Of a DNA stretch of 64,000 bases, positions 3,439-33,620 are shown one piece after another. A program made the translations under genes and the position numbers. This DNA comes from an uncultured Leifsonia sp. Its GTDB lineage: Bacteria; Actinomycetota; Actinomycetes; Actinomycetales; Microbacteriaceae. The stretch's first letter is position 1. The number at the start of each line of letters is the position of its first letter. Under the pieces are notes generated by a model. The model saw only the letters and a list, made by a program, of their open reading frames with translations. It was not told the origin of the DNA and made no database searches. The stretch is taken from assembly GCF_945957465.1 (NCBI RefSeq), contig NZ_CAMFLC010000007.1, positions 1 to 64,000 on the forward strand, read 5' to 3'.

Positions 3439-4065
3439 ATGTCTTTCACATCCGGAGCGCGCCGGGAGGACCGCCGCACGGTCACCGACCCGCGGGCTCT
3501 GCGCGCCCTCGCCCACCCGCTTCGCCTCGCCCTGCTCGACCACCTGATGTCGTTCGGCGCCCGCACGGCCAGCGAGTGCGCGGCGGCCGTGGGCTCGACG
3601 CCCTCCAACTGCAGCTACCACCTGCGCGCACTCGCCCGTTTCGGGCTCGTCGAGCGGGTGGAGGCCGAAGACGGCCGGGAGCGCCCCTGGCAGTCGACGG
3701 CCACCGGCCTCCAGCTCGGACGCGCAGGCGACCCGGGCATCCAGCTCGGCGTCGACACCGCCGAGCGGTTCTTCGCCGACCACCAGGTCGACGAGGAGGC
3801 CGCGCGCCTGCACCGTGCGATCGCGCTCCGCGACAGCGTGCCGCCCGCGTGGCGCGACGCCGGCATCCTCTCCGGCTACGCGCTGCGCATCAGCCCCGAC
3901 GAGCTGAGGGAGCTGGGACAGCGGCTGGACGCCCTGATCCGGCCCTACATCGCGCTCACCCGGGACGACGCCCCCGGCGACAGCGCCGTCGTCGCCCTCA
4001 ACCTCAACGCGTTCCTGCATCCCGATGCCGTCGCGGCCGCCGACGAGGAGGGCGAGGGCCGATGA
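3439..4065 (+). CDS. ArsR-like winged-helix transcriptional regulator
   Basis: 208 residues. An N-terminal helix-turn-helix of the HTH_20/ArsR type covers residues 15-80: DPRALRALAHPLRLALLDHL, then the recognition region TASECAAAVGSTPSNCSYHL and a wing (RVEAEDGRERPW). The C-terminal half (about 95-190) is an effector/dimerisation region without recognisable metal-binding cysteines, so it is unlikely to be a classical metal sensor. The start ATG lies 7 bases after a -10-like hexamer. Its stop overlaps the ATG of the following MFS gene (ATGA), so the two are translationally coupled, and it is divergent from another MFS exporter; the probable job is ligand-dependent repression of these exporters. 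Confidence 0.85.
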   Translation: MSFTSGARREDRRTVTDPRALRALAHPLRLALLDHLMSFGARTASECAAAVGSTPSNCSYHLRALARFGLVERVEAEDGRERPWQSTATGLQLGRAGDPGIQLGVDTAERFFADHQVDEEAARLHRAIALRDSVPPAWRDAGILSGYALRISPDELRELGQRLDALIRPYIALTRDDAPGDSAVVALNLNAFLHPDAVAAADEEGEGR

Positions 4066-5360
4066 CCCGTTCGCCCCTCCTCCGGCGCGACTACGCGCTG
4101 GTCTGGACCGCCGGCCTGGTCTCCGACACCGGCGACTGGCTGTTGATGATCGCCCTCCCGCTGTTCGCCTTCTCGGTCACCGGCTCCGCCCTGGGCGCCT
4201 CCGGGGTGTTCCTGGCCGAGCTTGTTCCGATGCTGCTCGCCGGCACGTTCCTCGGGGTGCTGGTCGACCGCTGGGATCCCCGGCGCACCATGATCGTCGT
4301 CGCGCTCGTCCAGGGCGTCGCGCTGCTCCCGCTGCTGGCCGCGGGCCCCGACCGCATGGGGATCGTGTACGGGGTGGCCGCCGTCCAGGCGTGCCTCGGC
4401 GGGATGATCAACCCGGCGAGGCAGTCCATGGTGCCGCGGCTCCTGCAGCCGCACGAACTGGGTCGGGGCAACGCGCTCCTCGCCATCGCCGACAACCTCG
4501 CGCGGCTCGTCGGCTCACCTCTCGGCGGCCTCGCGTTCGCGATGGGCGGTCTTCCCGGCGTGGTGATCGTGGACGCCGTGAGCTTCGGCGTGACCGCCGC
4601 GCTGGTCGCCTTCGTCCGGCCGTTGCGGCCCGCTCACGCCGAGGCGCGCATGGAGTCCGCGCCCGCGGTCGAGCGACGTCTGCTGCGGGAGTGGGTGGAG
4701 GGCATCGCGACGATCGTGCGGAGCCGCGAGCTGCGCACGATCGCGGTGATCGCCGTGCTCGGCAGCGTCGCCCAGGGCGTCTTCCTCGTCCTCTTCATCG
4801 TGTACGTCACGCACGACCTGGGCGCAGGCGACACGGAGGTCGGCCTGCTGCGCGGTGTGCAGGCGATCGGCGGTGTGCTGGGCGGCCTGATCACGGGGAT
4901 GCTGATCCGCCGCTTCGCGCCCCGTCGGCTGATCGGCGGCGGCTACCTGGTGTTCGGCGCGCTCTCGCTGCTGACATGGAATCTCGCTCCGGTCACGACC
5001 GCGGTGTGGGTCTACGCCGGGCTGTTCATCGCGATGGGCCTCCCGGCGGTGGCTACCGCCACGGGCGAGATCACCCTCGTGCAGACGGTGACGCCGCGCG
5101 CAGCCCTCGGGAGGGTGATCGCCGCGGTGACGACGCTCTCCGGCGCCGCGCAGGGCGTCGGCCTCCTGGTCGCGGGTCTCATCGCCGAGCCGGTCGGCAC
5201 TGTGCGCGTGCTCGACGGCCAGGCGACCCTCTATCTGTTGTGCGGTGTGCTGGCCCTGGTGTTCCTCGGGGCGGCGAAGAGGAACGGCCGGCGGGCGCCC
5301 GAGGGCGCGAATGACGGGGTGACCGATTCGGCCGCCGGCGTCGCCCGACCCGCCGGTTGA
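4062..5360 (+). CDS. MFS exporter of the EntS/MefA-like (MFS_3) group
   Basis: 432 residues with about 12 membrane segments. The start RRDYALVWTAGLVSDTGDWL is characteristic of the MFS_3 group (macrolide/enterobactin-type exporters), followed by the loop 2-3 motif VLVDRWDPRRTM and ARQSMVPRLLQPHELGRGNAL. The ATG at 4062 overlaps the regulator's TGA by one base pair step (ATGA). A central loop at about residues 200-215 separates the two six-helix halves. Substrate unknown; coupling to the ArsR-like regulator suggests a compound that the regulator senses. Confidence 0.88.
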   Translation: MTRSPLLRRDYALVWTAGLVSDTGDWLLMIALPLFAFSVTGSALGASGVFLAELVPMLLAGTFLGVLVDRWDPRRTMIVVALVQGVALLPLLAAGPDRMGIVYGVAAVQACLGGMINPARQSMVPRLLQPHELGRGNALLAIADNLARLVGSPLGGLAFAMGGLPGVVIVDAVSFGVTAALVAFVRPLRPAHAEARMESAPAVERRLLREWVEGIATIVRSRELRTIAVIAVLGSVAQGVFLVLFIVYVTHDLGAGDTEVGLLRGVQAIGGVLGGLITGMLIRRFAPRRLIGGGYLVFGALSLLTWNLAPVTTAVWVYAGLFIAMGLPAVATATGEITLVQTVTPRAALGRVIAAVTTLSGAAQGVGLLVAGLIAEPVGTVRVLDGQATLYLLCGVLALVFLGAAKRNGRRAPEGANDGVTDSAAGVARPAG

Positions 5361-5416
5361 CGCGAAACCCGCGCAGATTGCCGGGCGTTTCGGGCTGAGG
5401 CACGTAGGGTGTCGGT

Positions 5417-8400
5417 GTGTGGCGACTGGATAGGAAGAGCGAGGACGACGACATGACGTCGGACGTGCCCGAGGGCGACGCGCTGCACCCGGCCTCCAAC
5501 ACGACGTCCCCGCACACGCTGAGCCTCGGCGACCCCGGCCTCGTCGCCGGAAACATCGCCGACCACGTCTGGGCGCGCTGGCGCGAGGAGATCGCGGCGA
5601 TCGGCGGAGAATCGCCGCTGCTGCACTTCGAGGACAGCCCGCGGACGCGCATCGAACTGAGCACCACGCACCCGGGCGGCCTGCCCCAGTTCATCACCGG
5701 TCAGAGCACGCTGCTCTCCAGCCTGATCCGGGACGAGCTCGCCCTCCGCACGGCGCGCGCCGCGGCCAACGCGATCACGGCCAAGGGGATCGAGCTGCGC
5801 TCTGTGCGCGGCATCGAGTCGGTGCACCTGGCGATCGGGCTGGCGCAGTGGCGGCACGGCGCCGACGAGTTCATGGCGCCGATCCTGCTGCGTCCGCTCG
5901 CGATCCGCCGCTACGGGCGCGACTTCGAGCTGAAGCTCAAGGGGCAGCCCTTCCTGAACCCCGAACTGGCCCGCGCGCTGTCCGAGCAGTTCCAGATCAC
6001 GCTCGACGCCGACGCGTTCGTCGCGCTCGCCCTCGACAACGGGGCGTTCAAACCGCAACCGGTCATCGACCGCCTGCGCGGGCTCACGTCGCATCTGCCC
6101 TGGTTCAACGTGCAGCCGCGGCTCGTCGTGTCGTCGTTCGCCGACGTGGCTCCCGCGCTGCGGGCCGAGGCCGACGACCTGGACACACCGCTCCTGGATG
6201 CGCTGGCGGGCAACCCCACCGCCCGCACCGCGATCGAGAGCGCCTTCAACCCGGCCGACCCCATCCGGCAGGACGAGCGTCCGCCGGCCACCGACTCCCT
6301 CCTCCTGGATGCCGACGAGGAGCAGGAGAACGTGGTCGCGCAGATCTCGGCGGGCAACTCGATCGTCGTGAAGACCCTGCCGGGCACCGGAGGGACGCAG
6401 ACGATCGTCAACGCCGTCGGCGCCCTCGTCGCGCAGCACAAGCGCGTGCTCGTGGTGGGTCCGAGGCGATCGAGCCTCGAAGACATCGCGCAGCGCTTCG
6501 CGAAGGTCGGGCTGCCCGGCGTCGCGGTGACTCCGCGCACCCTCCGGCGCGACCTCATCCAGTCGATCGGCCGCAACGAGAAGGCCGAGCAGCCGCGCGT
6601 CACCGATGTGGACGACGCGCTCGTGCGGCTCCGCAAGGTGCTGCTCGACTATCGCGCCGCCCTCGCCCGACGCGACCCGGTGCTGCGCGTGTCCGTGCTC
6701 GACGCCCTGCGCGAGCTCTCGCGCCTCGCGCTGCTGCCCACGCCGCCGGCGACCACCGCCCGTCTCAGCCGCGCTTCGATTGAGGCTCTCGCCTCGGGCC
6801 GAGATGCCGCGGCGGACGCCCTGATCCGGGCCGCGCGCCTCGGCGAGTTCCGCTACGGCCCGAACGACTCCCCCTGGTACGGCGCGTCCTTCGCGACCAC
6901 GGAGGAGGGCAAGGCCGCCCACGACCTCGCCAAGAAGCTGAGCCGGGCCGAGCTGCCCCGCCTCATCGAGCGCGCCAGGGCGCTCATCGGCCAGACCCGG
7001 ATGCGGCCCTTCGAGTCGATCGCGGAGCTCGGCGTCTACCTGCGCCTCCTGCTCGACGTGCGCGAGACCCTCGACCGCTTCACGCCCGCCGTCTTCGACC
7101 GGTCGATCTCGGAGCTCATCGCGGCGACCTCGTCGCGCCGCGAGTCGCCGACGATGTCCGGTACCAACCGGCGCCGGCTGCGCAAGCTCGCCCTCGAGTA
7201 CGTCCGGCCCGGCGTGCACGTCACCGACCTGAACGAGAGCCTGCGCCGCATCCAGCAGCAGCGCATCCTCTGGAACCGCTTCGCCGTCGCCGGCGTGGTC
7301 CCGGAGGTGCCCGTCGGCATCGCCGACGTGCAGGTCGCGTACCAGCGTGTCGCGGAGGATCTCGCCCGGCTCGACATCCCGTTGCGTCGCACCGGCACCC
7401 CGCAGTCGCTGGCCGTGCTGCCGGTGGACGAGCTCACGCGTCAGGTCGCCGGACTCGCGGCCGAGTCGGAGGTGCTGGCCAACCTCCAGGAGCGCACCGC
7501 ACTGCTCGGGCAGCTGCGCGAGCGCGGTCTCGACCCGCTGCTGTCGGATCTGTCGGTGCGGCACGTCCCGGAGACCCAGGTCAGCGCTGAGCTGGAGCTC
7601 GCCTGGTGGCAGTCGGTGCTGGAGGCACTGCTCTCCGCCGATCGTGCCCTGCTGAGCGCGAATACCAGCGTCCTCGACCGTTTGGAGGCGGACTTCCGCC
7701 TCGTGGACGAGGCCCACGCCTCGGCGACGGGCAAGCAGCTGGCGTGGATGCTGGCGGAGACCTGGAAGATCGGGCTCGTCGACTGGCCGGACGAGGCCAA
7801 GGCGCTCAAGAAGCTGCTGACGACCACCACTCCGACCGCCGCGTCGCTGAACGCGGTGGCGCCGCACCTCGCCCGGCCGCTCGCGCCGGTCTGGCTCGTC
7901 TCGCCCTACGAGGTCCCGGCGATCGACGTCGACGTCGCCTTCGACGCGGTCGTGCTGATCGACGCGGGCGCTTCCACCCTGGCCGAGAACGTCCCTGCCC
8001 TGCGTCGCGCGCGCCAGATCGTCGCGTTCGGCGACCCGGTGACGCAGACGCCGTCCCGCTTCGACACCGGCGTGCACGAGTACGGCACCACCGCGGAGGT
8101 CGCCGACGTGGACGCCCTGCACGGCGACTCCGCTCTCGCCCGGCTGTCCGAGCTGCTGCCCGTGTACACCCTCGCGCGCAGCTATCGTGCGGGCGGCGAA
8201 GACCTGGCGGAACTCGTCAACCGGCGCTTCTACGGCGGCAAGATCGACTCGCTGCCGTGGGCGGGCACGTATCTGGGCCACGGCAGCCTCGCCCTCCACT
8301 ACGTCACCGGCGGTCAGGGCATGCCCGACAGCGACACCGGCGCCGTCGAGAGCACGGACGCGGAGGTGGCCAAGGTCGTCGAGCTCGTGCTCCGCCACGC

Positions 8401-9175
8401 CACGGAGCGTCCGCGCGAGTCGCTGATGGTCATCACGGCGAGCGAACGCCACGCGGTGCGTGTGAACCAGGCCGTGCTGTCCGCGTTCGCCAAGCGCACC
8501 GAGCTGGCCGACTTCATCCTCGGCGACCGGCCGGAGCCGTTCACGGTCGTCACCCTGGAGCAGTCGGTCGGGCAGAGCCGCGACCGGGTGGTCTTCTCGA
8601 TCGGCTACGGCCGCACCCCGCACGGCCGGCTGCTGTCGAACTTCGGCGCCCTCGCCGAGCCGGGCGGCGACCGCCTCCTGGCCGTCGGCATGACGCGAGC
8701 GCGCCGGGGCATGGACATCGTCTCGTGCTTCCGCCCCGACGACATCGACGAGTCGCGCATGCGGCACGGCATCGCCGCCCTCGCCCAGGTGCTGGGGGAG
8801 GCCGACCAGTTGCAGGCCGCGGTGCCCGAGTACCTCAGCCCCGACGCGGACCCGATGATCGTCGACCTCGCCAAGCGCCTCGCGCGGCGCGGCCTGGACG
8901 TGCAGGTCGGCTACCGGGGCAAGCTCACGCTCGTGGCCTCGAACGAGGGCCGCGCCGTGGTGGTGGAGACCGACGACGACGTGAACAAGGGCAGCCTCCG
9001 CGAGTCGCTGCGTCTGCGCCCCGATGTGCTGCGCCGGCTCGGCTGGCACTACCTCCGCGTGCACAGCTTCGAGCTGTTCGCCGACCCGGACGCGGTGGCC
9101 GGCCGTATCGCGAACCTCATCGGCGTCTCGGAGGCGAACACCGAGACCGCGCCCATCACGCTGCCGGTGCAGTGA
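5417..9175 (+). CDS. SF1 helicase-like protein with C-terminal MTES_1575-type endonuclease-fold domain; Walker motifs degenerate
   Basis: 1252 residues. The N-terminal 300 are an actinobacterial-specific part. A RecA-like domain starts near 300; its Walker A reads LPGTGGTQT with Gly326 where SF1 enzymes have the phosphate-binding Lys. Walker B reads VVLIDAGAS (Asp849-Ala850), so the catalytic Glu is also missing. Later SF1 motifs are kept: IVAFGDPVTQTP (motif III-like), VVTLEQSVGQSRDRVV (motif V-like) and LLAVGMTRARRGMD (motif VI with arginines). The last ~95 residues (VDLAKRLARRGLDVQVGY...VVVETDDD...LRRLGWHYLRVHS) match the Vsr-like REase_MTES_1575 fold. GTG 5417 lies six bases after TAGGGT, the leaderless pattern of this window; an in-frame ATG at 5453 behind GAGG is the alternative. 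Both lost residues were checked in the DNA. It is single, not in an operon. Either a nucleotide-independent DNA-binding/nuclease protein or a deteriorated helicase. Confidence 0.85.
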   Translation: MWRLDRKSEDDDMTSDVPEGDALHPASNTTSPHTLSLGDPGLVAGNIADHVWARWREEIAAIGGESPLLHFEDSPRTRIELSTTHPGGLPQFITGQSTLLSSLIRDELALRTARAAANAITAKGIELRSVRGIESVHLAIGLAQWRHGADEFMAPILLRPLAIRRYGRDFELKLKGQPFLNPELARALSEQFQITLDADAFVALALDNGAFKPQPVIDRLRGLTSHLPWFNVQPRLVVSSFADVAPALRAEADDLDTPLLDALAGNPTARTAIESAFNPADPIRQDERPPATDSLLLDADEEQENVVAQISAGNSIVVKTLPGTGGTQTIVNAVGALVAQHKRVLVVGPRRSSLEDIAQRFAKVGLPGVAVTPRTLRRDLIQSIGRNEKAEQPRVTDVDDALVRLRKVLLDYRAALARRDPVLRVSVLDALRELSRLALLPTPPATTARLSRASIEALASGRDAAADALIRAARLGEFRYGPNDSPWYGASFATTEEGKAAHDLAKKLSRAELPRLIERARALIGQTRMRPFESIAELGVYLRLLLDVRETLDRFTPAVFDRSISELIAATSSRRESPTMSGTNRRRLRKLALEYVRPGVHVTDLNESLRRIQQQRILWNRFAVAGVVPEVPVGIADVQVAYQRVAEDLARLDIPLRRTGTPQSLAVLPVDELTRQVAGLAAESEVLANLQERTALLGQLRERGLDPLLSDLSVRHVPETQVSAELELAWWQSVLEALLSADRALLSANTSVLDRLEADFRLVDEAHASATGKQLAWMLAETWKIGLVDWPDEAKALKKLLTTTTPTAASLNAVAPHLARPLAPVWLVSPYEVPAIDVDVAFDAVVLIDAGASTLAENVPALRRARQIVAFGDPVTQTPSRFDTGVHEYGTTAEVADVDALHGDSALARLSELLPVYTLARSYRAGGEDLAELVNRRFYGGKIDSLPWAGTYLGHGSLALHYVTGGQGMPDSDTGAVESTDAEVAKVVELVLRHATERPRESLMVITASERHAVRVNQAVLSAFAKRTELADFILGDRPEPFTVVTLEQSVGQSRDRVVFSIGYGRTPHGRLLSNFGALAEPGGDRLLAVGMTRARRGMDIVSCFRPDDIDESRMRHGIAALAQVLGEADQLQAAVPEYLSPDADPMIVDLAKRLARRGLDVQVGYRGKLTLVASNEGRAVVVETDDDVNKGSLRESLRLRPDVLRRLGWHYLRVHSFELFADPDAVAGRIANLIGVSEANTETAPITLPVQ

Positions 9176-29672: not shown

Positions 29673-29720
29673 CCACTAGATATGGGGGCATGGAAATGTC
29701 GGTACCCGGCTATATAGTGG
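29673..29720 (+). promoter_or_regulatory. Pair of NrdR boxes upstream of nrdAB
   Basis: Box 1 CCACTAGATATGGGGG (29673-29688) and box 2 CCCGGCTATATAGTGG (29705-29720) resemble the NrdR consensus ACACwATATATwGTGT and begin 32 bases apart, about three helical turns, the known spacing for cooperative NrdR binding. NrdR represses ribonucleotide reductase genes when dATP is high. The boxes lie 110 bases before the nrdA start and over the presumed promoter (TATATAGT). Confidence 0.8.
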
Positions 29721-29829
29721 TTCACGCGACAGGGGGTCCGGCTCGTTCTCGGGGAGGCCGGAGGCCGTCGCGACCGACTTCGCCGCTCGCCGAGCGGCAC
29801 ATTGAGATCGAGAGATCGAGGGAGAGATA

Positions 29830-32322
29830 GTGGCTATCACTGTTGTGAAGCGGAACGGCGAGCGGGAGCCGTACGACGCCAACAAGATCAACCTGGCCAT
29901 CGAGAACGCGGCTGCCGGCCTGGATGAGAACATCACCTGGGTGACGCAGATCGCGAGCGAGCTGGAGTTGACCCTGTTCGACGGCATCACGACCCAGCAG
30001 CTCGACGAGGCGGTCATCCAGGTCGCCCTGCAGAACGTCAAGGACGACCCGGCGTTCGACACCGTCGCCGCACGCCTCCTCCTCAAGACCATCTACAAGC
30101 GCGTGCTCGGCGACTACGAAGGCGCCGACGCGCTCGTCGACCTCCACCGCTCGCACTTCCGCGGCTACATCGAGCGCGGCGTCGCCGAGACCCTGCTCGA
30201 CTCGCGGTTCACCTCGCTCTTCGACCTCGACCGCCTCGCCGCGGCCCTCGACCCGTCGCGCGACGAGCTCCTCAAGTACATCGGCGTGGTCACGTTGAAC
30301 AACCGCTACGGCATCAAGGCGCGCAACGGCGACTCGCTCGAGGTTCCGCAGTACTTCTGGATGCGCATCGCGATGGGCCTCTCGCTCAACGAGGCCGACC
30401 CGACCTCGCACGCTCTCGCCTTCTACGACAAGATGTCCAAGCTCGAGTACCTCGCGGCGGGCTCCACGCTCGTCAACGCGGGAACGGCGTACCCGCAGCT
30501 CTCCAACTGCTTCGTGATGGAGATGCAGGACGACATCGAGCACATCGCCAAGTCGGTCCGCGACGTGATGTGGCTCACGAAGGGCACCGGGGGCATCGGC
30601 CTCTCGGTCACCAAGCTGCGCGCGCAGGGCTCGCCCATCCGCTCGAACAACACCACCTCCACCGGCCCGATCCCGTTCATGCACACGATCGACTCGGTGC
30701 TGCGTGCGGTCAGCCGCGGCGGCAAGAAGTTCGGCGCCCTCTGCTTCTACATGGAGAACTGGCACCTCGACTTCCCCGAGTTCCTCGACCTCCGTCAGAA
30801 CTCCGGCGACCCTTACCGCCGCACCCGCACCGCCAACACCGCGGTGTGGATCAGCGACGAGTTCATGAAGCGCGTGCAGAACGACGAAGACTGGTACCTC
30901 TTCGACCCGCTGGAGGTCGCCGACCTCAACGAGCTGTACGGCAAGGAGTTCTCCGCCCGTTACCAGCACTACGTCGACGAGGCCGAGGCCGGTCGCCTGC
31001 GGATGTTCAAGAAGATCAGCGCGCGTGCGCAGTTCAAGGACATCCTGATGAGCCTGCAGACCACCAGCCACCCGTGGCTGACCTGGAAGGACACCATCAA
31101 CAACCGCGCCCTCAACAACAACACGGGCACGATCCACCTCTCGAACCTCTGCACCGAGATCACGCTGCCGCAGGACCGCGACAACGTCTCGGTCTGCAAC
31201 CTGGCCTCCATCAACCTGTCGCGTCACCTGATCGACGGCAAGATGGACTGGGAGCGCATCGAGGCCAGCGCCCGCCAGGCCGTGCGCCAGCTGGACAACC
31301 TGATCGACATCACCGTCTCCAGCGTCGACGAGGCCGATTTCTCGAACAAGCAGAACCGGGCGATCGGCCTGGGCGTCATGGGCTTCACCGACATCGTCGA
31401 GCGCCTCGGCTACAGCTACGAGAGCGAAGAGGCCTACGCCCTGATCGACGAGATCATGGAGCACGTCTCGTACGCGGCCATCGACGAGAGCGCCGACCTG
31501 GCGCAGGAGCGCGGCGCCTACCCGAACTTCGAGGGATCGCGCTGGTCGAAGGGCCTCGTGCCCTACGACTCGATCGCCCTCACCGAGGCCGACCGCGGGG
31601 TGCCGATCACGGTCGACCGCACGATCCGCCTCGACTGGGACCGCCTGCGCGAGAAGGTCAAGGGCGGCATGCGCAACGCCACCCTGATGGCCATCGCCCC
31701 CACGGCCTCCATCGGCCTGGTCGCCGGCACCACGCCGGGCTTCGACCCGCAGTTCTCGCAGATCTTCAGCCGGTCGACCTCCTCGGGCAAGTTCCTCGAG
31801 GTCAACCGCAACCTGGTCGAGACGCTGCAGGAGCGGGGCATCTGGCAGGACGTCCGCGAGTCGATCCTGCGCTCGCAGGGCGACATCCAGGGCATCGCCG
31901 CCATCCCGGACGAGGTCAAGGCCACGTTCAAGACCAGCTTCCAGCTCTCGCCGTACGCCTTCATCGAGGTGGCCGCGCGCGCCCAGAAGTGGATCGACCA
32001 GGCGATCAGCCGCAACATGTACCTCGAGACGCGTGATCTCGGCGACATGATGGACATCTACTACGCGGCGTGGGAGAAGGGTGTCAAGACCACCTACTAC
32101 CTGCACATGAAGCCGCGTCACCAGGCCGAGCAGTCGACCGTCAAGGTCAACAAGGCCGAGGAGATCTCGGGAGGCCGCACGGGCTTCGCCACCGTGGGTG
32201 CAGGCGCACCCGCCGCTGCCCCCGCCGTCACCGAGACCGCCCCGGCGGCCGCTCCCGCTCGCCGCGGGTTCGGCTTCGGCGGTCTCACCTCCAACACCAC
32301 GGCTGGCGGTGAGAGCAAGTGA
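29830..32322 (+). CDS. nrdA: Ribonucleoside-diphosphate reductase alpha subunit, lacking the in-frame C-terminal redox tail
   Basis: 830 residues. ATP-cone at 1-95 (ITVVKRNGEREPYDANKI), then the ten-stranded barrel. Catalytic residues are present: Cys227 (LSNCFVMEM), Cys441 (SNLCTEI, thiyl radical site), Cys456 (VCNLASINL) and the radical-transfer pair Tyr756-Tyr757 (TTYYLHMKP). After an Ala/Pro-rich linker the frame ends FGFGGLTSNTTAGGESK without the terminal CxxC pair that re-reduces the active site; that sequence follows in another frame (32319-32396). GTG 29830 has GGGAGA. No nrdH or nrdI gene is adjacent, so with the ATP-cone this is NrdA-type, not class Ib NrdE. Makes deoxynucleotides with NrdB; controlled by NrdR. 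Confidence 0.95.
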   Translation: MAITVVKRNGEREPYDANKINLAIENAAAGLDENITWVTQIASELELTLFDGITTQQLDEAVIQVALQNVKDDPAFDTVAARLLLKTIYKRVLGDYEGADALVDLHRSHFRGYIERGVAETLLDSRFTSLFDLDRLAAALDPSRDELLKYIGVVTLNNRYGIKARNGDSLEVPQYFWMRIAMGLSLNEADPTSHALAFYDKMSKLEYLAAGSTLVNAGTAYPQLSNCFVMEMQDDIEHIAKSVRDVMWLTKGTGGIGLSVTKLRAQGSPIRSNNTTSTGPIPFMHTIDSVLRAVSRGGKKFGALCFYMENWHLDFPEFLDLRQNSGDPYRRTRTANTAVWISDEFMKRVQNDEDWYLFDPLEVADLNELYGKEFSARYQHYVDEAEAGRLRMFKKISARAQFKDILMSLQTTSHPWLTWKDTINNRALNNNTGTIHLSNLCTEITLPQDRDNVSVCNLASINLSRHLIDGKMDWERIEASARQAVRQLDNLIDITVSSVDEADFSNKQNRAIGLGVMGFTDIVERLGYSYESEEAYALIDEIMEHVSYAAIDESADLAQERGAYPNFEGSRWSKGLVPYDSIALTEADRGVPITVDRTIRLDWDRLREKVKGGMRNATLMAIAPTASIGLVAGTTPGFDPQFSQIFSRSTSSGKFLEVNRNLVETLQERGIWQDVRESILRSQGDIQGIAAIPDEVKATFKTSFQLSPYAFIEVAARAQKWIDQAISRNMYLETRDLGDMMDIYYAAWEKGVKTTYYLHMKPRHQAEQSTVKVNKAEEISGGRTGFATVGAGAPAAAPAVTETAPAAAPARRGFGFGGLTSNTTAGGESK

Positions 32323-32396
32323 ACAGCACCAAGATCGAGGAGTACTACGTGCCGGTCGACCCGATGGACGACCTGCAGTGCGAGTCCTGCCAGTAG
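32319..32396 (+). CDS. Out-of-frame C-terminal tail of NrdA carrying the CESC redox motif (25 codons)
   Basis: GTG at 32319 overlaps the nrdA TGA (GTGA) and opens MNSTKIEEYYVPVDPMDDLQCESCQ. This matches the end expected of a class I alpha subunit: a flexible linker followed by DLQCESCQ, the Cys pair that passes electrons from thioredoxin to the active site. It continues nrdA in the -1 frame. Options: a real indel or base-calling error (one extra base would make KVNSTKIEEYY continuous), a programmed shift (no slippery heptamer seen), or coupled translation of a separate peptide. The first is the simplest. The clear coding sense of the sequence is visible; its mode of expression is not. Confidence 0.75.
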   Translation: MNSTKIEEYYVPVDPMDDLQCESCQ

Positions 32397-32433
32397 CCCG
32401 CCAGCACGAGATCACGAGAGAAGAGAAGAACAG

Positions 32434-33423
32434 ATGGGCATCCTGGGAACGGGAATCGAAGAGGGCCTGCTGCTCAAGCCGGTGAAGTACCAGTGGGCGA
32501 TGGACCTCTACGACCAGGCCGTCGCGAACACCTGGTTCCCCAACGAGATCCAGCTCGGTGAGGACATCGCGGACTTCAAGCGGATGACCGACGAGGAACG
32601 TCACGCGGTCACCTTCCTGATGAGCTACTTCAACCCGAACGAGCTCCTGGTGAACAAGGCGCTGGCGTTCGGCGTGTACCCCTACATCAACGCGGCGGAG
32701 GCGCACCTCTACCTCGCCAAGCAGATGTGGGAGGAGGCCAACCACTGCATGTCGTTCGAGTACGTCCTCGAGACGTTCCCGATCGACCGCGAGCAGGCGT
32801 ACAACTCCCACGTCGACATCCCGTCGATGGCGCGCAAGGAGGAGTTCGAGGTCCGCTTCATCAAGCGGATGACCGAGCAGGCGCTCGACATCACGACGAC
32901 CGAGGGCAAGCAGGACTTCATCCGCAACCTGGTGGCGTACAACGTCATCCTCGAGGGGATCTGGTTCTACTCGGGCTTCATGGTGGCGCTGTCGTTCCGC
33001 CAGCGGAACCTGCTGCGCAACTTCGGGTCGCTGATCGACTGGGTGGTGCGCGACGAGTCGCTGCACCTCAAGTTCGGCATCAACCTGATCCTCACCGTGC
33101 TGGAGGAGAACCCCGACCTGCAGACGCCGGAGTTCGCGAACGAGATCCGCCAGATGATCCTGGACGCCGTGGAGATGGAGGAGCAGTACAACCGCGACCT
33201 GCTGCCCGGCGGCATCCTGGGCCTCAACGCCAACTACATCAACCAGTACGTCAAGTACCTGGCCGATCGCCGCCTGGAGGAGCTCGGCTTCGAGGCCGAG
33301 TACAAGGTCTCCAACCCGGCCAAGTGGATGGCGACCGCCAACGACACGCTCGAGCTGGTCAACTTCTTCGAGTCGACCAACACGTCGTACGAGTCGAACG
33401 CGAAGGCGTCCAGCGGGCACTGA
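32434..33423 (+). CDS. nrdB: Ribonucleoside-diphosphate reductase beta subunit (R2), class Ic-like with Phe at the radical site
   Basis: 329 residues. Ferritin-like dimetal protein. Ligands seen: Glu70 (NPNELLV), Glu101 and His104 (WEEANHCMSF), Glu174 (VILEGIWF), Glu208 and His211 (RDESLHLKF). The position four residues after His104, where most R2 proteins have the radical Tyr, is Phe108 (codon TTC). The ligand spacings equal those of the Chlamydia trachomatis R2 (E89, E120, H123, E193, E227, H230, F127), whose Mn(IV)/Fe(III) centre replaces the tyrosyl radical. First ligand Glu instead of Asp also fits class Ic. ATG 32434 is close behind nrdA and the redox-tail frame. Confidence 0.95.
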   Translation: MGILGTGIEEGLLLKPVKYQWAMDLYDQAVANTWFPNEIQLGEDIADFKRMTDEERHAVTFLMSYFNPNELLVNKALAFGVYPYINAAEAHLYLAKQMWEEANHCMSFEYVLETFPIDREQAYNSHVDIPSMARKEEFEVRFIKRMTEQALDITTTEGKQDFIRNLVAYNVILEGIWFYSGFMVALSFRQRNLLRNFGSLIDWVVRDESLHLKFGINLILTVLEENPDLQTPEFANEIRQMILDAVEMEEQYNRDLLPGGILGLNANYINQYVKYLADRRLEELGFEAEYKVSNPAKWMATANDTLELVNFFESTNTSYESNAKASSGH

Positions 33424-33443
33424 GTTCCTGGCGTCACGTCCGT

Positions 33444-33480
33444 CGAGGGGCGGCTCCGGTCCGACCGGAGCCGCCCCTCG
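33444..33480 (+). terminator. Terminator hairpin after nrdB
   Basis: Perfect 17-base stem (33444-33460 with 33464-33480), loop CCG, 20 bases after the nrdB stop. No T-run. Its sequence does not belong to the four repeat families described here. Confidence 0.9.
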
Positions 33481-33500
33481 CGCGTGAGCGTCGCAACCGA

Positions 33501-33576
33501 TCGGCGGCGGCGTCGGCATCGGCGGCGGCATCGGCGGCGGCGGCACCGGTGGCAGCACGGGTGGCGCACGGCGGTG
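33501..33576. repeat. GGC/ATC-rich low-complexity tract between nrdB and the rhodanese gene
   Basis: Mostly GGCGGCG and GGCATCGGCGGC units in the 197-base gap. Open in several frames because of composition, with no start signal; nothing coding is supported. Confidence 0.7.
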
Positions 33577-33620
33577 ACCGTCGCGGCGGCCACGGCGCAA
33601 CGGTCTGCGAGAATCGGGGG

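Follow-up and report, generated by a model that had tools for sequence, protein, structure and literature searches.

Separation of a C-terminal redox tail from the catalytic subunit of class I ribonucleotide reductase in Microbacteriaceae

In class I ribonucleotide reductases (RNRs) the redox tail is known to be carried by the catalytic chain. In the DNA considered here, a stretch of 64,000 nucleotides from an uncultured Leifsonia sp. (contig NZ_CAMFLC010000007.1; hereafter the window), this tail is instead encoded by a short gene of its own, which begins at the stop codon of nrdA and is followed by nrdB. The same split is conserved in related genomes, the tail gene is mostly present in several copies, some of these copies lie far from nrdA, and others are found on plasmids and phages. 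We consider it very probable, judging from the sequences compared, that in those Microbacteriaceae whose NrdA lacks the tail the active site is re-reduced in trans by a redox peptide that is translated on its own.

The nrdA product of the window has the domains of a catalytic subunit (ATP-cone PF03477, Ribonuc_red_lgN PF00317 and Ribonuc_red_lgC PF02867 in Pfam) and scores 1689.8 bits against NCBIfam NF005101 (PRK06539), for which the cut-off is 988. Its only cysteines are residues 227, 305, 441 and 456, none following residue 456, and its YY pairs begin at residues 744 and 756. The closest solved NrdA, 5im3, has the same residues at the positions aligned with Cys227, Cys441, Cys456 and Tyr756-757, which we take to be the active-site cysteine triad and the tyrosine pair. 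The locus thus possesses the domains, the triad, the tyrosine pair and the adjoining NrdB partner of a class I enzyme; its NrdA chain carries no C-terminal redox cysteine pair and ends in ...GGESK with a TGA at 32320-32322. A GTG at 32319-32321 overlaps this TGA and starts an open reading frame (ORF) of 25 codons, with its stop ending at 32396, which encodes ...YYVPVDPMDDLQCESCQ, contains two cysteines, terminates in LQCESCQ and has nrdB next downstream. On the split itself and on the numbering of Cys227, Cys441, Cys456 and Tyr756-757 we concur with an earlier note on this DNA, which had offered three accounts of the split: one missing base, a -1 frameshift, or separate translation of the tail by re-initiation.

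Comparison with relatives is decisive for the first of these accounts. The best 80 of 403 matches were read, mostly from named genera of Microbacteriaceae and in part from metagenome-assembled genomes with vaguer titles; 78 of them were assessable, two loci (L072 and L078) being cut off. A separate short ORF bearing the tail motif follows nrdA in 75 of the 78, the loci with no adjoining tail being L020, L059 and L073. Relative to nrdA the tail lies in frame 2 in 64 of these 75 loci, in frame 0 in seven and in frame 1 in four, and its first ATG or GTG stands at +2 from the first base of the nrdA stop in 31, at -1 in 30 and elsewhere in 14. Since 75 of 78 relatives are split, and in all three frames, the arrangement cannot be put down to the loss of a base or to a single fixed frameshift; the split is real, beyond chance and not an error. 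The stop-start overlaps take the forms ATGA, GTGA and TRATG in varying contexts, so that the GTGA of the window is one of several, and such overlaps fit coupled re-initiation; of the three accounts it is this one that stands, with the translation of the tail itself a prediction from sequence. No cysteine follows KTTYY in any of 106 NrdA ends read (L002-L108, some genomes being represented twice and one having a disturbed frame). The last of these, L108 in genome G005, has an nrdA frame that overruns the usual stop after query position 809 and appears disturbed upstream; its genome has three tail matches. In L062 the N-terminal part of the tail ORF repeats VNEHG in tandem and offers several GTG starts.

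Elsewhere in the class the same segment is part of NrdA. Among loci read from other families it is fused in 44 of 47, a count that covers genomes with a tail match, there being no such match in 360 of 396 genomes of the order survey and in 375 of 394 of the class survey. At the level of the order, 36 of 396 genomes matched the tail at E <= 0.1, with six further weak matches outside the loci read, and an NrdA-marked frame ends with the tail in 28 of 29 loci read outside the window's own genome, the exception (L147) having it in a 110-codon frame without the NrdA mark. At the level of the class, 19 of 394 genomes matched at E <= 0.01 and the tail is fused in 16 of 18 such loci, the other two being L280 and L283. 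The fused proteins are of the same NrdA type, with an RGFG-rich linker and a homologous end, DP(M/Q/A)E(R/A)L(Q/N)C(E/D)SCQ, and differ in that the tail belongs to the same chain; on this comparison the fused tail would be the ancestral state.

Within the family, NrdA of this kind (E <= 1e-100) was found in 130 and the tail (E <= 0.001) in 136 of 299 genomes. Both occur together in 130, NrdA alone in none, the tail alone in six and neither in 163, an association with a Fisher p of 2e-78, which is nominal because the genomes are related. Beyond anything in the earlier note, the tail gene is usually multi-copy and is found standing alone in genomes as well as on plasmids and phages: one copy is present in 12 of the 130 genomes with NrdA, two in 91 and three or more in 27, so that 118 have at least two, with a maximum of six. 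The genome of the window itself has one nrdA and six tails, distributed over contigs C7 (one), C17 (two), C26 (one) and C32 (two). The tails on C32 have genes for ParA-like, ArdC-like, relaxase, resolvase and Fic proteins nearby, and an SSB gene lies near one of those on C17; from these neighbours, the C32 tails and one C17 tail look element-borne. On a plasmid-like contig of this genome (L153, 3209-3511), and likewise in L160, a protein of about 100 residues with no Pfam match ends in the tail motif, that is, the tail is fused there to a protein other than NrdA. In six genomes (G028, G029, G030, G476, G591 and G440; G029 is the same as G555 by coordinates) nrdA is followed by nrdB with no tail between them and the tail is encoded elsewhere. 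The assemblies of G030 and G591 are not complete, and G028 shows a further two tail matches, both weak (E 8.8e-4 and 2.3); in G440, which is 98% complete and in one contig, the tail lies about 33 kb from nrdA. These six genomes are a natural in-trans experiment.

The last 18 codons of the tail appear to be under purifying constraint, the ratio of non-synonymous to synonymous polymorphism (pN/pS) being 0.13 for the operon copies of the genus, 0.29 for the relative loci (best 80 of 403), 0.15 for stand-alone copies and 0.20 for viral ones, values that are biased towards conservation because the tails, the viral ones included, were found by their motif. Four tail peptides gave no match in NCBIfam or PHROGs, and three compared with Pfam gave matches below the cut-off only.

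Plasmid copies were sought in 72,556 records, of which 19 matched the tail (Clavibacter 15, Leifsonia 3, Gryllotalpicola 1) at E values up to 0.5, the tail ORF being read in three of the 19. On pCM2 and pCM2L, typed as conjugative, the match falls in a small hypothetical gene between ArdC-like and SSB genes, and the Leifsonia protein WP_223361114.1, annotated as a subunit beta, is actually a 33-residue tail protein. Five of 50,697 phage records matched, with tblastn E values of 0.09-0.5 that alone are not significant; the tail ORF was read in CN1A and phiPsal1, being unannotated in both, and CMP1 was among the other matches. As it has no match to a curated family and is unannotated in the two phage records read, the tail is easily missed. 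In IMG/VR, 387 stretches fitted the pattern and 354 were confirmed; 80 were kept, and all 80 are ORFs ending in the motif, 16 of them in frames open for more than 100 codons in which the start is uncertain. Of these 80 loci, L223 alone gave a tblastn match to NrdA, and NrdB was matched there and in L230. A search of 34 whole virus records (32 longer contigs and two phages) found NrdA in that of L223 and none in the other 33, the contigs being possibly fragments. In L223 (record G1083) the order is NrdR-like boxes, tail, nrdA, nrdB, and the nrdA-like frame at 5170-8511 is interrupted in frame, close to the active-site Cys441, by an insert whose Pfam matches to Intein_splicing and LAGLIDADG_3 both fall short of the cut-off. 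In L230 an nrdB-like gene (3943-5075) lies immediately before the tail ORF, and no part of the 58.9-kb record matches NrdA.

A putative regulatory signature accompanies many of the detached copies. Paired NrdR-like boxes, scored with a consensus that we take to be that of the NrdR box, precede all 25 stand-alone copies taken from outside plasmid-like settings, five of which came from searches of the own genome and of relatives and 20 of which were picked by hand among the matches listed. The boxes are spaced 33 bases start to start in 20 copies, 32 in four and 35 in one (spacers of 17, 16 and 19 bases), and five of 3000 random segments of the window reach a pair score of 21 (of 32). Downstream neighbours, which to the eye are presumably MaoC-like and MurB-like, are common to 23 of the 25. 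Functional NrdR spacers are given as 14-17 bp, most commonly 15-16, in passages of PMC12051234; all 25 copies were counted as having two 16-bp boxes so separated, one of them with the spacer of 19. Taken together, the sequences suggest that NrdR probably controls the second chromosomal copy of the tail. The boxes were absent from 77 of 78 viral tail ORFs tested.

A number of observations weigh against a separately made peptide under NrdR control. Where the tail adjoins nrdA, its frame is closed within the last 30 bases ahead of the nrdA stop in 16 of 75 loci and stays open over them in the other 59, so that at these 59 nothing compels the use of a start codon. Within the family, a tail was matched without NrdA in six genomes: in five the assembly is fragmented (120-320 contigs, completeness 77-94%), and in G258 the match is weak and falls in a frame of 16 codons. 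As to the boxes, the pair threshold was chosen after the single-box scores had been viewed, and 20 of the 25 loci were chosen by hand; the pair before nrdA in the window, spaced 32 start to start, scores 21 of 32 and is thus at the threshold; the spacer is 17 bp in 20 copies and 19 in one, against the commonest 15-16; in shuffles of the upstream sequences of the 25 copies the best single-box score was reached in 0 to 12 of 200; and boxes were absent from 8 of 33 tail ORFs tested, these being in plasmid-like settings or on plasmids.

How far do other explanations account for the same facts? A base missing from nrdA through sequencing or assembly error would look alike in any one genome, but 75 of 78 relatives agree with differing overlaps and frames and stand-alone copies exist, so that this account, already refuted by the relatives, deserves practically no credence. 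Programmed frameshifting or readthrough that fuses the tail to NrdA, with the overlap as the recoding site, has this in its favour: 64 of 75 adjacent tails share one relative frame, and at the 59 loci just mentioned slipping is not barred. The seven tails in frame 0 and the four in frame 1 nevertheless speak against it, as do the six genomes in which no tail adjoins nrdA and the stand-alone copies, which cannot be fused by slipping. In the window, moreover, the tail frame is closed by a TGA at 32310-32312, so that a -1 slip is confined to the seven bases between the two stops, where no slippery heptamer was seen by eye. A fixed frame and a conserved slip site, as expected of a programmed frameshift gene, were not found, the frames and the stop-start contexts being varied and the slip site judged by eye; the three relative frames and the six genomes with distant tails exclude frameshifting as the general mechanism, and we regard recoding in any form as very unlikely.

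It is also conceivable, if improbable, that the tail peptides are regulators or decoys binding NrdA or thioredoxin, another protein reducing the active site directly. An enzyme part would not usually occur on plasmids and phages or in as many as six copies per genome, and the motif also terminates a 100-residue protein, encoded on a plasmid-like contig, for which Pfam gave no match. Yet the same segment is the C-terminus of fused NrdA elsewhere in the class, a tail is present in all 130 genomes with tail-less NrdA, and the NrdA of the window has just four cysteines, none of them in its own tail. Were the finished peptide attached to NrdA by a ligase or by trans-splicing, the customary covalent arrangement would be regained; nothing that points to this was found, no dedicated search having been made, and we give it next to no weight.

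The reading that we prefer, a separate peptide acting in trans, can be put as a sequence of steps. The flexible C-terminal redox tail of a class I RNR would have become a separate gene, and ribosomes that terminate at the nrdA stop may re-initiate there to translate its operon copy. A free peptide some 25 residues long would bind NrdA through its conserved Y-x-VP-x-DPM-x-x-L-x-C-x-S-C-Q, and by thiol exchange its cysteine pair would reduce the active-site disulfide, which by homology we take to be formed by Cys227 and Cys456. Re-reduced in turn by thioredoxin or a glutaredoxin-like protein, the peptide would serve as a diffusible reductant subunit. With NrdR acting on the second chromosomal copy, peptide supply could set turnover, and plasmids and phages carrying a tail may gain a cheap boost of deoxyribonucleotide (dNTP) supply from the host enzyme without an nrdA of their own. 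We lean slightly towards the wider proposition that the tail is a free and mobile peptide cofactor, that NrdR-controlled, plasmid and phage copies tune dNTP synthesis, and that phages take over the host RNR with a gene of about 75 bp. A detachable tail of some 25 residues would make the thiol-exchange step separable and directly testable, and would be a natural example of part of an enzyme having become a diffusible cofactor; its gene may be among the smallest auxiliary metabolic genes.

The features of the locus are collected below. On the opposite strand a frame of 1292 codons (29722-33600) lies open antisense to nrdA-nrdB, probably as an effect of high G+C.

Table 1. Features of the nrdA-tail-nrdB locus, in window coordinates
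Feature	Position	Strand	Remarks
nrdA, class I ribonucleotide reductase catalytic subunit without C-terminal Cys pair	29830..32322	+	GTG start, 830 aa; Pfam, NCBIfam
Tail gene, 25-aa peptide VNSTKIEEYYVPVDPMDDLQCESCQ	32319..32396	+	start codon overlaps nrdA stop; kept in relatives
nrdB, small (radical-generating) subunit, 329 aa	32434..33423	+	Pfam Ribonuc_red_sm; NCBIfam NF007186
Candidate NrdR box pair upstream of nrdA	29673..29720 (29673-29688 + 29705-29720)	+	weak, at threshold

Among the top-ranked open-licence full-text results no report of a detached class I tail was found, a report elsewhere being possible; the papers among them dealt with split RNRs of a different kind or with other subjects, PMC9669993 and PMC9531940 being among those consulted. 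Passages of PMC3653736 describe two divided phage enzymes. The NrdA of Aeromonas phage Aeh1 is likewise encoded by two genes (NrdA-a and NrdA-b) and reported functional, but there the division arose from insertion of a homing endonuclease inside the phage gene, whereas here no insertion is involved and the tail alone is detached and exists without nrdA. Thermus phage phiYS40 similarly has its RNR as two consecutive ORFs, nrdJ-a and nrdJ-b, but of class II. The nearest precedent is NrdJa/NrdJb of Pseudomonas aeruginosa, in which, according to passages of PMC4520616 and PMC5704485, the redox C-terminal cysteines belong to a polypeptide that has its own gene and acts in trans, a separation that the sequences predict here as well. 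That enzyme is of class II and B12-dependent, and NrdJb is a folded cysteine-rich zinc-finger domain, neither of which applies to the present system; here the enzyme is of class I, with an NrdB, and the detached part is a peptide of some 25 residues whose gene is usually multi-copy, with one copy behind NrdR-like boxes and others on plasmids and phages. NrdJa alone has low activity with dithiothreitol (DTT) and needs NrdJb in vivo (PMC4520616, in part), and by analogy this pair is the model for the behaviour that we would expect of the tail-less NrdA and its peptide.
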